This document shows, piece after piece, positions 813 to 5,033 of a DNA stretch of 5,033 bases. This stretch comes from Rhodospirillales bacterium (GTDB lineage Bacteria > Pseudomonadota > Alphaproteobacteria > Rhodospirillales_A > JACZKS01), in NCBI GenBank assembly GCA_018648445.1, contig JABGRG010000171.1, forward strand, positions 1 through 5,033, written 5' to 3'. Under the pieces are notes generated by a model. It saw only the letters and a program-made list of their open reading frames with translations, was not told where the DNA came from and ran no database searches. A program made the position numbers and the translations under genes. Position 1 is the stretch's first letter, and each line of letters starts with the position of its first letter.

Positions 813-2576
813 TTATCTGGGCGGAAACTTGAAAGCGATAATACTCGATTCCAATGGATCGTGGACAATCGCCAATATCTTGTCGTTTTTCATGATGTCG
901 TCGGGCGGGCTACCGATAAACAGTGTGGACGTGTCGCAATGTTCCGGGCCCGGACATGCTTTTGCGTAATTTTTCGCATAACGAATGCGCCCGTTTCGCA
1001 CCGTCAGCTTTTGAAAAGCGGCCTTGCTTTTGCCCAACCGGTAATTGTTGATACCGTAAAGAGTGGCGCAAGGCCTCGGTTGAACGGTGCGCAGGCAAGT
1101 GATGTTGTTTCCTGGATCTTGCGCCAGATGTGTATCAACGGCTTGCTGCAGCTGCTCCTCTATTTCATTGTACACCGGCATGACCGATCTGGCAGCGAAT
1201 ACATAGTCGCCAAACGAAAGGGCGACAATCGCCAAAACCGTGGCCACGCCGCCCCTCCTAAGGAATTTACTCGATGAGCGCTCGATCATCACGAGAATGT
1301 AAGCAACAACGATAAGACTCATGATGATCATGCGCGATGTTTGGCCATAAGCCGTGATTACGTTCGGTTCGACCAAAATGGCGTTTCCTGCCATAAAGAA
1401 GGTCAGAAGCAGTGAAACTCCAATAAAAATCAGGGCAAATACCGCTCGCGTAGTGACTCCCTCTCGTCTGGTGCTTTCGGCGATCGCCAAAAATGCCAGA
1501 ACGACGCTGACAATGGGCAGCCAATGCCATGACCAGGCTGTCAAGAAGCCCCAATAATCGGGTGTCACCACGATGTTAGGATGGGTCGAATCCGGGTCGG
1601 TGAACAAGGCCGCCGTCTTCCTCATTTTTTCGGCTGCGGTCGCTCCCCAGAAGCGGACGAGAAAATTGCACGAAAGCACCCAACCGATTGCCATGGGGGC
1701 TACCCACGCCCACCAGAACCGCCAGGCAACAGCTTTTCTGAGAATAAAATACAGAGCGGCGATGGCAATCACTGCAGTTACGCCCCAGGCAAAATCGCTG
1801 CTAAGCTTGATAATGCCGCTGTGGCGCAGAATATCGCGCGGAATATCCAGCATGTTTCTTATCAAAAAAACGAGAACAGCCAAAATTCCAGCAATAACCG
1901 GCCAGGATCGGGTCTCGGGTACCGTGGAAAGGCGCGATAGAAAGGAGTCCAACCCCTCCTTGTAGGCCAACCAGACGAAACCGACCATGGCACCCAATAC
2001 GATGGGAACAACAAGAAACAGGTTAGCCAGGAAAAAACCGAACAGCGCCAGTACGACCGTTATTACCCAACGCTTTCGTGTTGCGGACACGACAACGATA
2101 TAAAGGCCCAGCGCCAAAGCTGGCGAAAGGAAACCCAATGGGGCATATATGACAAGCAGAGGTGCATAGAGGGCTACGGTCGGCATGCTTATTGCTACCA
2201 AAGACAGCAACGCCGGGATGTAGAGCGGCAGGCGAAGAATATTCGAAAAAAGTGCGACCAGCACGGAGGCGATGATAGCAAACACAATGTTCAAGCCAAA
2301 ACCCATCCAATAGAATGCGTCAAGGGTCTCATCACCCTGGACCGGCAAAACCAAAAGGCTTTCCAGGAAGATTAAGGAATAGGCCGGATGGCCAAATCGG
2401 ATTTGGAACTCGCCATAGAGGAGGTTCTGGGCTAACCCGAATTGGCCGGGAATATTGTCGTTGGGAAAACTGTAATACTCGCGTCCCAGGGATTGGTCGA
2501 TAATCAGAAAAATAATAATGGGAAGGAAATACGCCAGAACGTATTTTTGGGGCATTAACTGATCCAATTTGCTCAT
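813..2576 (-). CDS. Multi-pass inner-membrane protein, possibly a GT-C-type glycosyltransferase
   Basis: The product has 587 residues when started at the ATG at 2574-2576. That start is preceded by AAGGGGG (2587-2593 on the minus strand) with a 10-base spacer. The frame stays open upstream to 2711, but the extra 45 residues are hydrophilic and lack a comparable ribosome site. About 11-13 hydrophobic segments follow: one at residues 10-28, then roughly 66-80, 93-112 and 118-155, and further ones to about residue 485. Between the first two lies a polar loop with D, E and N residues (REYYSFPNDN) followed by a GHPAYS motif. In layout this resembles the first extracytoplasmic loop of GT-C transferases, which use lipid-linked sugar donors, but no decisive motif is visible. 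The last ~105 residues are soluble and hold four cysteines in two close groups (CLRTVQPRPC and CPGPEHC), which would suit disulfides if this tail is periplasmic. It is transcribed away from the rfaH operon, and its position beside a polysaccharide-type locus supports a surface-glycan role. The function remains unassigned; an O-antigen ligase/polymerase-like protein is an alternative. Confidence 0.8.
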   Translation of the reverse strand: MSKLDQLMPQKYVLAYFLPIIIFLIIDQSLGREYYSFPNDNIPGQFGLAQNLLYGEFQIRFGHPAYSLIFLESLLVLPVQGDETLDAFYWMGFGLNIVFAIIASVLVALFSNILRLPLYIPALLSLVAISMPTVALYAPLLVIYAPLGFLSPALALGLYIVVVSATRKRWVITVVLALFGFFLANLFLVVPIVLGAMVGFVWLAYKEGLDSFLSRLSTVPETRSWPVIAGILAVLVFLIRNMLDIPRDILRHSGIIKLSSDFAWGVTAVIAIAALYFILRKAVAWRFWWAWVAPMAIGWVLSCNFLVRFWGATAAEKMRKTAALFTDPDSTHPNIVVTPDYWGFLTAWSWHWLPIVSVVLAFLAIAESTRREGVTTRAVFALIFIGVSLLLTFFMAGNAILVEPNVITAYGQTSRMIIMSLIVVAYILVMIERSSSKFLRRGGVATVLAIVALSFGDYVFAARSVMPVYNEIEEQLQQAVDTHLAQDPGNNITCLRTVQPRPCATLYGINNYRLGKSKAAFQKLTVRNGRIRYAKNYAKACPGPEHCDTSTLFIGSPPDDIMKNDKILAIVHDPLESSIIAFKFPPR

Positions 2577-2847
2577 ACGATCATGGCCCCCTTGTCGTTG
2601 GCATTGTCGCTGACCCCGTATCGCCAACAATACGGATGGTTCTTCCATCATTGGCGGGCACGCTGTCATATTTCCAGAGTTTCCGTCAAGACCCACAGCG
2701 CGCAAATGCAATTCACCAGGTTGTGCGATGGTTAGGTGGGGAGTTGTAGTTCTTAAGGGGGGCGGCGTTGGCCTTGACGGATCACGAAATGGTCAACACT
2801 TCTTAACCAGTGTTCTCTCGATTCCCCTTCGTCAGGTACCTGGACTC
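2577..2847. other. Divergent intergenic region, left part
   Basis: No credible gene is seen on either strand. The stretch holds small dyads: CCGTAT-N8-ATACGG (2616-2635) and AACACT-N8-AGTGTT (2795-2814). It also has a 9-bp inverted pair, TCCGTCAAG (2682-2690) and CTTGACGGA (2773-2781), 82 bases apart. It must contain the promoter of the minus-strand membrane gene, but no convincing -35/-10 pair with normal spacing was found. The 2795-2814 dyad ends in TGTTC (2811-2815), the same half-site as the tandem operator further right, but here no GAACA partner lies at the N7 distance. Confidence 0.4.
2587..2593 (-). promoter_or_regulatory. Ribosome binding site deciding the start of the membrane protein
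   Basis: On the minus strand this reads AAGGGGG, 10 bases before the ATG at 2574-2576. It favours this start over the longer open frame that reaches 2711. Confidence 0.55.
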
Positions 2848-2876
2848 TTGACCCTGCGTCCCCCCAACTGTATGTT
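2848..2876 (+). promoter_or_regulatory. Putative sigma70 promoter of the regulator-rfaH operon
   Basis: TTGACC (2848-2853, 5 of 6 to the -35 consensus) is followed by a 17-base spacer and TATGTT (2871-2876, 4 of 6 to the -10 consensus, keeping the TA start and final T). The expected start point is near 2883, giving an untranslated leader of about 64 bases before the ATG at 2947. The -10 overlaps the first operator dyad, an arrangement typical of a repressed promoter. The prediction rests on motif match and spacing only. Confidence 0.5.
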
Positions 2877-2906
2877 CGTGGCGTGAACATGTTCGTGAAA
2901 TGAACA
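2873..2906. promoter_or_regulatory. Tandem operator: two abutting TGTTC-N7-GAACA dyads
   Basis: Two 17-bp dyads lie end to end: TGTTC (2873-2877), seven bases, GAACA (2885-2889); then TGTTC (2890-2894), seven bases, GAACA (2902-2906). All four arms are perfect, and the abutting arms also create the palindrome GAACATGTTC (2885-2894). The sites overlap the -10 and predicted start point of the rightward promoter and lie 41 bp before the start of a winged-helix regulator. Autoregulation by that protein, with two dimers side by side, is the natural inference. The identity of the binding protein is not shown by the sequence. Confidence 0.65.
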
Positions 2907-2946: not shown

Positions 2947-3576
2947 ATGCCCGAAGAACAACGCGAAATCACACTGGGGCTGCTGAACGCGGTCCACGAA
3001 AACAGCAATGTGACGCAACGCAATGTGGCGCAGGATTTGGGCGTCGCGTTGGGGTTGGTCAACGCGTATCTCAAACGTAGCGTAAAAAAGGGTTTTATAA
3101 AGGTTCGTCAGGCCCCGGCAAACCGTTTTGCTTATTATTTGACGCCCGCTGGTTTCGCAGAAAAAAGCCGCCTGACGGCTGCATATCTTTCACACTCGTT
3201 TACTTTTTTTCGCAATGCCCGGCGCGAAGGATCCGAAATCCTGGGATTTTGCGAAAAACGCAATTGGCTAAAGGTTGCGCTCGCAGGAACCAGTGATTTG
3301 GCCGAGATCATCATCCTGTGCGCGGGAGAAAGCAAAGTCTCACTGGCCGGTATCCTTGATACAAACGTATCGGATGAACCGTTCATGGGACTTCCGGTAA
3401 CCAATCTTTTGAAAAAACTGGGCTCGGTGGACGCGGTCGTCATCACAGATTTGACCGATCCTCAGTCCGCCTTCAACGTGCTTTCCGAGTACTTTCCATC
3501 GGAGCGCATTTTGGCCCCCGATATTCTTGGCATCGTCCGCAATGAACGCAACGGTCGGAAGCGGGAGGCTGGCTGA
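2947..3576 (+). CDS. Winged helix-turn-helix regulator with C-terminal Rossmann-like domain
   Basis: The 209-residue product starts at the only credible initiator: the frame runs open back to a stop at 2896 without another ATG, GTG or TTG. The ribosome site is weak. Residues about 8-70 form a winged helix of MarR-like type: a first helix, a helix-turn-helix near 23-44 (TQRNVAQDLGVALGLVNAYL) and a basic wing near 52-66 ending LTPAG. Similar short winged-helix proteins are often annotated as EPS-associated regulators beside polysaccharide genes. A linker helix (about 76-100) leads to an alpha/beta domain: VALAGTSDLAEI at 110-121, a strand SLAGILD at 132-138, then GLPV and DAVVITDL. This pattern resembles a Rossmann-type nucleotide or CoA-binding fold, perhaps a ligand-sensing domain; the ligand is unknown. 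The gene is first in its operon and overlaps the next by one base, and tandem operators lie just upstream. It probably controls the operon, but repressor or activator cannot be decided. Confidence 0.85.
   Translation: MPEEQREITLGLLNAVHENSNVTQRNVAQDLGVALGLVNAYLKRSVKKGFIKVRQAPANRFAYYLTPAGFAEKSRLTAAYLSHSFTFFRNARREGSEILGFCEKRNWLKVALAGTSDLAEIIILCAGESKVSLAGILDTNVSDEPFMGLPVTNLLKKLGSVDAVVITDLTDPQSAFNVLSEYFPSERILAPDILGIVRNERNGRKREAG
3563..3568 (+). promoter_or_regulatory. Ribosome binding site of the rfaH-like gene, inside the regulator gene
   Basis: GGGAGG lies seven bases before the ATG at 3576-3578, within the last codons of the preceding gene. Together with the TGATG overlap (3574-3578) it suggests translational coupling of the two regulators. 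Confidence 0.6.
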
Positions 3577-4079
3577 TGCTCCGGTGGTATGTCGTCCATA
3601 CGAAGCCCCGCGGAGAAGAGACCGCATTATTCCATTTGCGCCGCCAGGATTTCGAAGCCTACCTGCCGTGCCACTTGAAGAAACGCGTGCACGCGCGGCG
3701 CACCGATTGGGTGCCGAGCCCGCTATTTCCAAATTATATGTTCGTGGCCATGGATAAGGATCACGCCAGATGGCGCTCCATTCGGGGAACCATCGGCGTC
3801 AAGGGACTGGTTTGCAATGGCGATCAGCCGTTGCCTGTGCCCGAGGGCATTGTGGAGGCCATTCGCGCGCAGGAAAATGGAAACGGTTACGTCGATTTTC
3901 ACCGCGACGAAGTCTTCAATAAAGGTGAGCGCGTTGAAATTGCCAAAGGCCCGTTTGCTGAGACCTGCGGAATTTTTGAATGTGTTGATTCAAAAGACCG
4001 TGTGATTGTGCTTCTCAGCCTGCTGGGCCGAGAAGTGCGCACGCGGGTTCGAACCGACTGGGTTCAGGCCGCCGCCTGA
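3576..4079 (+). CDS. rfaH: RfaH-type transcription antiterminator (NusG paralog)
   Basis: The 167-residue product has the NusG/RfaH layout: an N-terminal NGN domain (about 3-100, opening WYVVHTKPRGEE) and a C-terminal KOW domain (about 116-164). Several segments favour RfaH over housekeeping NusG: PLFPNYMFV at 49-57, IRGTIGVKGLV at 69-79, and IFECVDSKDRVIVLLSLLGREV at the C-terminus. Aligned from memory with E. coli RfaH, the numbering matches without gaps through residue 57. K10, H20, R23 and Q24, part of the surface I recall as contacting ops DNA, are identical. Position 73 is Ile instead of Arg, and 48 is Ser instead of the Glu that makes the autoinhibitory salt bridge; its Arg138 partner appears kept as R142. 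Such proteins bind RNA polymerase paused at ops, suppress pausing and Rho termination, and can recruit ribosomes. A perfect ops element 57 bases after this stop codon strongly supports the assignment. The start overlaps the upstream stop (TGATG). Confidence 0.9.
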   Translation: MLRWYVVHTKPRGEETALFHLRRQDFEAYLPCHLKKRVHARRTDWVPSPLFPNYMFVAMDKDHARWRSIRGTIGVKGLVCNGDQPLPVPEGIVEAIRAQENGNGYVDFHRDEVFNKGERVEIAKGPFAETCGIFECVDSKDRVIVLLSLLGREVRTRVRTDWVQAAA

Positions 4080-4109
4080 CTGGCCGGGTTTGAGAGAAAT
4101 TCTACCCAA

Positions 4110-4133
4110 CGGGTGAAACCTGTTTTTCACCCG
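4110..4133 (+). other. Leader hairpin upstream of ops
   Basis: A perfect 9-bp stem, CGGGTGAAA (4110-4118) with TTTCACCCG (4125-4133), encloses a 6-base loop. It ends three bases before the ops element. It has no T run after the 3' arm, so it is not a standard intrinsic terminator. In the RNA it would stand 12 bases behind position C9 and 14 behind T11 of ops. That is close to the hairpin-to-3'-end distance known for hairpin-stabilised pauses such as the his pause, so a role in pausing is possible. Confidence 0.6.
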
Positions 4134-4166
4134 AATGGCGGTAGCGTGAAGAATTGGTGGGTGAAA
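4125..4166 (+). repeat. Third copy of hairpin arm: alternative pairing across ops
   Basis: GGGTGAAAC occurs at 4111-4119 and again at 4159-4167. The complementary arm TTTCACCC (4125-4132) can therefore pair 8 bp with either copy, but not both. Pairing with the downstream copy would place ops inside a 26-base loop. GGCG (4137-4140) can also pair with CGCC (4167-4170). This is what a two-state RNA leader would look like. Function is inferred from complementarity alone. Confidence 0.45.
4137..4148 (+). promoter_or_regulatory. ops element (RfaH recruitment/pause site)
   Basis: The 12 bases GGCGGTAGCGTG equal the E. coli operon polarity suppressor sequence that ends the JUMPstart leader of capsule, LPS and related operons. 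In that system RNA polymerase pauses at ops and RfaH reads the exposed non-template strand. Here the element is on the coding strand, directly after an RfaH-like gene and 53 bases before the next gene, exactly where it would act on the downstream operon. The GC-GGTA-GC core (4138-4145) that forms the small DNA hairpin in the E. coli complex is intact. The rest of the E. coli JUMPstart sequence is not recognisable and is replaced by a different hairpin. Confidence 0.85.
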
Positions 4167-4201
4167 CGCCAAACCCATCGGAGATGCAACTGGAACAATC
4201 G

Positions 4202-5033
4202 ATGCCCTCCAGAAACGACAAATTGTTCAAATCACTCCTCCGCACGGCCCTACTGATCCGCAAAGTCGAAGAACGGATCATTGAGGTCTATCCCGATGAT
4301 AAGGTCCAAAGCCCTGTTCATCTTTCTATCGGGCAAGAGGCGGTGGCGGCGGGGGTTTGCCATGCGCTTCGCCGCGAAGATTGGCTCTATTCATCGTACC
4401 GCAGCCACGCATTTTATTTGGCCAAGGGCGGAGACCTGAAAGCGATGTTTGCTGAGCTGTACGGCAAGGTTACAGGCGGTGCGAAGGGCAAAGCCGGATC
4501 CATGCACCTGACCGCGCCTGAGGTTGGCTTAATGGGGTCGTCGGCCGTTGTTGCCAGTGCTATTCCCCACGCCCTGGGCGCGGCATATGCCAGCAAGCTC
4601 AAGAACGACGGCAAGGTTCACTTGATTGCTTTCGGCGACGGCGCCACGGAAGAGGGTGTTTACCATGAGTCCCTCAACTTCGCTGCACTCCATGAGCTTC
4701 CGATTGTTTTTCTATGTGAAAACAATGGATTAGCTGTTCATTCGCGACCGAAGGCACGTCAGAAATTCTCGATTCAAAGCCACGCCGCGACATATCAAAT
4801 CCCGGTTCACCACGTTTCTGAAGGCTACGATTTTATTGCGGTCTTCGAGGCCGTATCGCTATTGGTTGAACGCGCCCGGCATGGCGATGGCCCGCAATTC
4901 ATCGAGATCGACACCTGTCGCTACATGGAGCATGTGGGCCCGGGAGAGGATTTCAACGCGGGTTATCGGTCCCGCAGCGAGATCGAACCGTGGATGGCCA
5001 GAGACGTATTGATTCAGGAACCCGATCTTTGTG
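4202..5033 (+). CDS. Thiamine-diphosphate-dependent 2-oxoacid dehydrogenase E1, alpha subunit (partial, 3' end outside window)
   Basis: 277 codons are visible and the frame is open at the window edge. The family usually has about 320-360 residues, so most of the protein is present. The fold is clear: LLIRKVEER at 17-25, HLSIGQEAV at 40-48, YRSHA at 66-70, and GKAGSMHL at 96-103. The thiamine-diphosphate/magnesium motif runs from GDGATEEG (145-152) to ENN (173-175). With a beta subunit, usually encoded next, such proteins decarboxylate pyruvate or related 2-oxoacids, or acetoin, and pass the acyl group to an E2 lipoyl protein. The substrate is not decided by this sequence. Being first after ops in a polysaccharide-type operon, it may supply an acyl or keto precursor for an unusual sugar or lipid instead of serving central metabolism. 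The start is uncertain: ATG 4202 has only a weak GGAA (4192-4195). An in-frame ATG at 4184 directly abuts GGAG, and a GTG lies at 4157. Confidence 0.9.
   Translation, partial: MPSRNDKLFKSLLRTALLIRKVEERIIEVYPDDKVQSPVHLSIGQEAVAAGVCHALRREDWLYSSYRSHAFYLAKGGDLKAMFAELYGKVTGGAKGKAGSMHLTAPEVGLMGSSAVVASAIPHALGAAYASKLKNDGKVHLIAFGDGATEEGVYHESLNFAALHELPIVFLCENNGLAVHSRPKARQKFSIQSHAATYQIPVHHVSEGYDFIAVFEAVSLLVERARHGDGPQFIEIDTCRYMEHVGPGEDFNAGYRSRSEIEPWMARDVLIQEPDLC

Follow-up and report, generated by a model that had tools for sequence, protein, structure and literature searches.

Recruitment to RNA polymerase is known in detail solely for E. coli RfaH (PMC7593976). In the published structure, the side chains of K10, H20, R23 and R73 contact the ops element, and recruitment was reported to suffer dramatically when K10, H20 or R73 was changed to alanine (PMC5995543). 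A conserved JUMPstart stem-loop was reported in 2010 for gammaproteobacteria (PMC2864571). For NusG paralogs encoded in the operons that they serve, recruitment has been described as unknown or partly known (PMC6391919, PMC7593976, PMC7819879). In one account of RfaH evolution, action in cis came first and ops reading arose late, together with autoinhibition (PMC7593976), and cis-encoded, ops-independent monomorphic RfaHs have also been proposed (PMC13015549). These statements, and those credited to this literature below, reflect the available portions of each paper. Within such portions of the open-licence PMC literature, no report was found of ops directly after cis-encoded rfaH-like genes.

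Here we describe such an arrangement in a 5,033-nt stretch of DNA from a Rhodospirillales bacterium (contig JABGRG010000171.1), the whole of which is termed the window. The locus is laid out as a self-contained cassette in which genes for a winged-helix regulator and an RfaH-like protein are followed by a stem-loop and ops, and then by the operon. The parts were known already; their combination and its breadth are new to the literature searched, as far as the available text of that literature goes.

Organization of the window locus

The features of the locus are as follows:

2848..2876, plus strand: promoter-like site TTGACC-17-TATGTT from a consensus scan; weak, candidate operon start
2874..2905 (2874-2888 and 2891-2905), no strand assigned: two tandem palindromes GTTC-N7-GAAC, predicted operator of the winged-helix regulator
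2947..3576, plus strand: winged-helix regulator, MarR_EPS-like (TIGR04176 match below cutoff)
3576..4079 including stop, plus strand: RfaH-like NusG paralog of 167 aa (ORF, with profile and PDB sequence matches)
4110..4133, plus strand: stem-loop, with stem 4110-4118 (CGGGTGAAA) pairing with 4125-4133 (TTTCACCCG) and loop 4119-4124
4137..4148, plus strand: ops element GGCGGTAGCGTG, exact match
4154..5032, plus strand: dehydrogenase E1-alpha-like gene (PF00676, 189 bits), running past the window end

The stop codon of the MarR_EPS-like gene overlaps the start codon of the RfaH-like gene (TGATG), forming a tight array. The promoter consensus scan returned two sites, with 0.8 expected. Of 13 relatives with a MarR_EPS-like gene, 10 have the palindrome GTTC-N7-GAAC in the corresponding upstream stretch, compared with 0/151 other loci, and the pair is predicted to serve as the operator of this regulator family. 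For the MarR_EPS-like protein, HTH models match the N-terminal part alone. No Pfam match covers the C-terminal half, which appears Rossmann-like by eye and perhaps senses NAD or a sugar nucleotide. A 632-aa ORF (816-2711, minus strand) lies close by on the upstream side and diverges from the module; it is seemingly hydrophobic by eye and found no match in searches of Pfam and NCBIfam.

The best of six families for the NusG paralog was the RfaH equivalog TIGR01955, with 129.7 bits; because this is under the curated cutoff of 144.5, the protein is called RfaH-like. It matched PF02357 at 75.3 bits and RfaH among PDB sequences at 2.4e-14. Scores for the UpxY family (NF033644; 76.3 vs. a cutoff of 100 bits) were below the threshold, and those for LoaP (NF033641; 43.4 vs. 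125 bits) were far below it.

An exact match and the ORF ends confirm that, as originally predicted, GGCGGTAGCGTG lies 57 nt past the RfaH-like stop. It is the sole exact 12-mer match within the window, and a first-order Markov expectation from window composition is 5e-8 per position, or ~4e-6 over 74 positions. The stem-loop, which was absent from the original prediction, has a 9-bp stem and ends 3 nt before ops. No intrinsic terminator was reported at this hairpin by the scan. A second copy of GGGTGAAA is found after ops, at 4158-4165, and could pair with 4125-4132 in place of the first copy, leaving ops in the loop; the sequence allows this pairing, but the predicted folds do not show it, and it was set aside.

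The E1-alpha-like gene, which probably starts at ATG 4184 or 4202, would be the first of the presumed target operon, known here up to position 5033. The original prediction placed a biosynthetic gene after ops. A gene does follow, and it is E1-alpha-like; its biosynthetic role is one that we infer for a gene cut by the window end.

The ops element beside RfaH-like genes

The ops element beside the RfaH-like gene of the window is not there by chance. A set of 166 RfaH-like loci was picked by protein similarity alone, with ops ignored. This set comprised 32 loci from a largely betaproteobacterial genome contig set, 88 distinct loci from 398 genomes of one phylum, and 46 loci from the order to which the best match belongs (249 genomes). 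Flanks of 500 bp were taken on each side, some of them shortened by contig ends. The ops core GCGGTAGC was present downstream on the same strand in 52/166 loci vs. 1, 2 and 3 in the three control strand/side sets, and when the 8-mers of these flanks were ranked by downstream excess with no motif given, GCGGTAGC came out on top. Exact GGCGGTAGCGTG occurred downstream on the same strand in 16/166 loci, with control counts of 0 for the opposite strand downstream and, for the upstream flank, 1 on the same strand and 2 on the opposite strand. By sample, [GT]GCGGTAGC was found in 23/88 loci from the phylum, 25/46 from the order and 3/32 from the genome contig set, and the controls for the phylum and order samples did not exceed 2 per set. 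The loci are related by descent, and p-values therefore overstate their independence. No ops was found within 500 bp downstream in 115/166 loci, including 29/32 of the genome contig set.

The cis module of regulator and ops in the original prediction is real and recurrent, and the expectation there that ops would be found downstream of RfaH-like genes beyond controls is strongly upheld. Rather than being absent near homologs, ops is kept in the best-matching relatives with DNA at hand, at 44-45% protein identity; the closest homologs of the RfaH-like protein (80-87% identity) were compared at the protein level. Long conservation or transfer of the protein/DNA pair, which had also been suggested, is compatible with this breadth.

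The ops signal is positional. A genome-wide ops count was rejected as evidence, there being no excess of bare ops-like strings in 11 genomes. In these genomes there are 41 copies of KGCGGTAGCNTG and 174 of its reversed control, a roughly fourfold shortage that may reflect codon bias or avoidance of stray ops. At two loci, L083 and L105, exact ops is located ~170 and ~330 bp upstream, respectively, on the opposite strand and facing away from the rfaH-like gene, as for a divergent operon.

DNA sufficed in 47 ops-positive loci, and in 42 of them the longest ORF on the downstream side is co-directional. Every one of 28 downstream ORFs put to Pfam from five relatives (L208, L209, L210, L212 and L213) was matched, and the matches included epimerases, glycosyltransferases, DegT aminotransferases, NeuB, a cytidylyltransferase and ABC exporter parts. 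Sampled relatives mostly head sugar/polysaccharide gene runs. The reading is less clear for L212, where the first long ORF past ops runs on the opposite strand.

Stem-loop, ops and protein residues

The signal is more than ops and consists of a stem-loop and ops together. The 3' arm of the stem-loop is a second enriched motif, TCACCCGGA, whose spacing to the ops that follows it is constant. Since a MAFFT alignment of the hairpin misaligned the 5' arms, the hairpin was tested by arm permutation, shuffled-fold z-scores and per-position pair tallies. For the window and 51 other ops loci (52 in all), 26-nt pieces that end at ops had a mean MFE of -9.1 and a mean z of -2.3. Structure peaked exactly at the ops edge, with mean z from -0.95 to +0.26 at the remaining 16 piece positions. 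The z-score was -3.1 for 30 TCACC-type loci and -1.4 for the 22 others, with control pieces near 0. The stems of the 30 loci sum to a length of 198; with the 5' arms permuted among these loci, the sum fell to 175.5 (sd 4.5), and 0/1000 permutations reached the observed value. The pair at the fifth position ahead of ops was G-C, C-G, A-T, T-G or T-A, depending on the locus. The stem varies in sequence but stays complementary; lineages diverge widely in stem and loop, and ops stays the same. A stem-loop adjoins ops in 52/52 folded loci, in a search that sought one within 5 nt and a tally without a control of its own. In the window, the 26-nt piece up to ops has a fold energy of -11.6 kcal/mol (z -3.6, 0/1000 shuffles), and the advantage over shuffles is only moderate for wider pieces (z -2.0, -1.6 and -1.3).

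The composite pattern TCACCC-N4-[GT]GCGGTAGC was compared between genomes of one order with and without an RfaH-like match at E <= 1e-14 (RfaH-positive and RfaH-negative, respectively). It was found in 33/50 RfaH-positive vs. 3/199 RfaH-negative genomes (Fisher 3.7e-25, with kinship uncontrolled). Of the 40 composite sites, 3 belong to RfaH-negative genomes. The RfaH-positive genomes contain the rest, 24 of them no more than 500 bp downstream of the gene and 13 at other places. Both of the RfaH-negative sites examined (2 of 3) are inside long same-strand ORFs. Among the 7 of 13 elsewhere sites examined, L191 falls in a stretch rich in ORFs and could be background; the site at L182 (genome G603) is ~460 bp upstream of an rfaH-like gene on the same strand, in a layout that recalls UpxY leaders; and the first genes after L189 and L194 are sugar epimerase/dehydratase-like. 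Because 13 of the 37 composite sites in RfaH-positive genomes lie away from the gene, action in trans is possible as well.

The window protein is identical to E. coli RfaH at K10, H20, R23, Q24 and R138, and has I at R73 and S at E48. Three of the four base-contact side chains are therefore kept (not R73), and the autoinhibition salt bridge E48-R138 is replaced by S48 and R138. The original prediction drew on the identity of K10, H20, R23 and Q24 for support. The identities stand, but they fail as support and the argument was abandoned: H20, R23 and Q24 are alike in frequency with and without cis ops, and K10 (24/51 cis-ops proteins vs. 88/115 others), R73 (13/51 vs. 49/115) and E48 (9/51 vs. 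59/115) are rarer with it, a rarity that is confounded with ancestry and cannot be separated from it. The ops label requires 29 changes on the tree vs. a shuffled mean of ~44.7, with at least 9 changes forced by well-supported branches, and a tree-aware test of E48, R73 and K10 against cis ops had 9 usable pairs and no signal either way. AlphaFold2 was run for the window protein and for an E48-type cis-ops control (L006); since both were given a beta (NusG-like) CTD, the prediction does not discriminate on fold-switching.

Proposed recruitment at the stem-loop and ops, and described systems

The best reading, and one that we hold to be likely, is that a cis-encoded RfaH-type factor boards polymerase at the hairpin-ops element in its own operon. 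RNA polymerase, having transcribed the regulator genes, would pause at ops, with the window pause predicted at 4147 by analogy to E. coli ops, which pauses at U11 (PMC11001881). The stem-loop would form in the emerging RNA and may prolong or shape the pause. In hairpin pauses, the spacing from the hairpin to the 3' end is usually about 11 nt; the distance from the stem base to the predicted RNA 3' end is 14 nt in the window and 11 nt in relatives whose stem reaches ops. The RfaH-like protein, presumably abundant near its own gene, would bind the flipped G5/T6 of ops on the non-template strand, stay on polymerase, displace NusG and Rho, and carry polymerase through a long downstream run. We infer recruitment, hairpin-aided pausing, antitermination and cis loading from these arrangements, with the E1-alpha-like operon as the putative target of the window protein. 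Copies elsewhere in some genomes imply that the signal can also work in trans. Against this reading, R73, whose alanine change compromises E. coli recruitment, appears as I in the window, there is no cis ops in 115 of the loci, and bare ops-like strings are in no excess genome-wide.

A different possibility, the published 'ancestral' model, is that the protein needs no ops to act in cis and boards polymerase during its own translation; ops would then be just a strong pause that buys time. Such a model would suit a window protein with neither R73 nor E48 and a predicted NusG-like CTD; ops itself is a strong pause (PMC6391919), and constitutively active RfaH homologs without some ops-binding residues occur beside their own operons (PMC13015549). 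The CTD prediction, however, was no different for the E48-type control, the sequence kept is GCGGTAGC with the G5/T6 read by RfaH rather than any pause sequence, and composite sites also lie away from the gene, where boarding of a nascent protein cannot account for them. We consider this model improbable. The divergence of stem and loop sequences across lineages, with ops constant, means that if the stem-loop and not ops were recognised, as LoaP binds an RNA hairpin, recognition would need shape; this is a slim prospect, even with a stem-loop beside ops in every folded locus, the requirement of LoaP for a leader hairpin (PMC12691694), and the binding of RfaH by RirA, an RNA of the E. coli waaQ leader (PMC8745692). 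Coincidence, or a coding or repeat artefact, is very improbable: a lone 12-mer in one window would be thin, and most loci are without ops, but the expectation for the gap together with the cis enrichment refutes chance at the family level.

Beyond the preferred reading of boarding at the hairpin-ops element, a wider claim is offered tentatively, with the balance tilting slightly against it. It holds that RfaH-type factors encoded in cis, most of which lack E48 (autoinhibition) and R73 (T6 reading), form a large group that loads at the same ops, and that the working signal is bipartite, comprising a shape-conserved RNA stem-loop and ops. If true, sequence-specific loading could be separated from both autoinhibition and trans action and may be older than either, contrary to the published order. 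The loci suggest that many cis-encoded proteins lacking E48 and R73 keep ops beside them, with direction and causation unproven; such proteins offer a means to ask whether ops reading needs autoinhibition. As far as the available portions of these papers go, the data bear directly on the late-ops view (PMC7593976) and the ops-independent view (PMC13015549). A hairpin-ops element right after the gene would be a concrete recruitment site for many operon-encoded NusG paralogs, and the layout, which recurs in many distantly related bacteria, could help explain how built-in factors find their target genes. The JUMPstart stem-loop, of which no mention was found in the available portions of the structural papers, is suggested as part of the signal.

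UpxY of Bacteroides capsule operons is, as in the window, a NusG paralog encoded in the operon that it serves; it is reported to act in the leader that precedes its own gene (PMC7819879), whereas the window ops lies after the gene. LoaP of Bacillus is a NusG paralog dependent on a leader RNA hairpin, with no ops described in the available portions of its literature. RfaH cluster CL4 (PMC7593976) resembles the window by neighbor gene, being associated with an HTH regulator gene, and no mention of ops beside CL2-CL8 genes was found in the available portions of that paper. Monomorphic beta-RfaH homologs (PMC13015549), like the window protein, are located beside the target operon and have partly lost the E. 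coli-type ops and autoinhibition residues; they are presented as ops-independent, whereas ops is conserved beside such proteins in the present loci.

E. coli RfaH with ops/JUMPstart (RF01707) has in common with the window a NusG paralog, an exact ops and sugar-polymer target operons. The E. coli rfaH gene is unlinked to its targets, whereas in the window the gene lies immediately ahead of the signal; the window protein has other residues in place of R73 and E48 of E. coli RfaH, and the stem and loop sequences differ. An Rfam scan of the window up to E 10 gave no match, RF01707 included, and L102 alone reached gathering among 18 cis-ops loci scanned with RF01707. In E. coli waaQ and rfbB, which both reach JUMPstart gathering, a short stem-loop is found right before ops, as in the window, and the window signal has the architecture of the enterobacterial JUMPstart.
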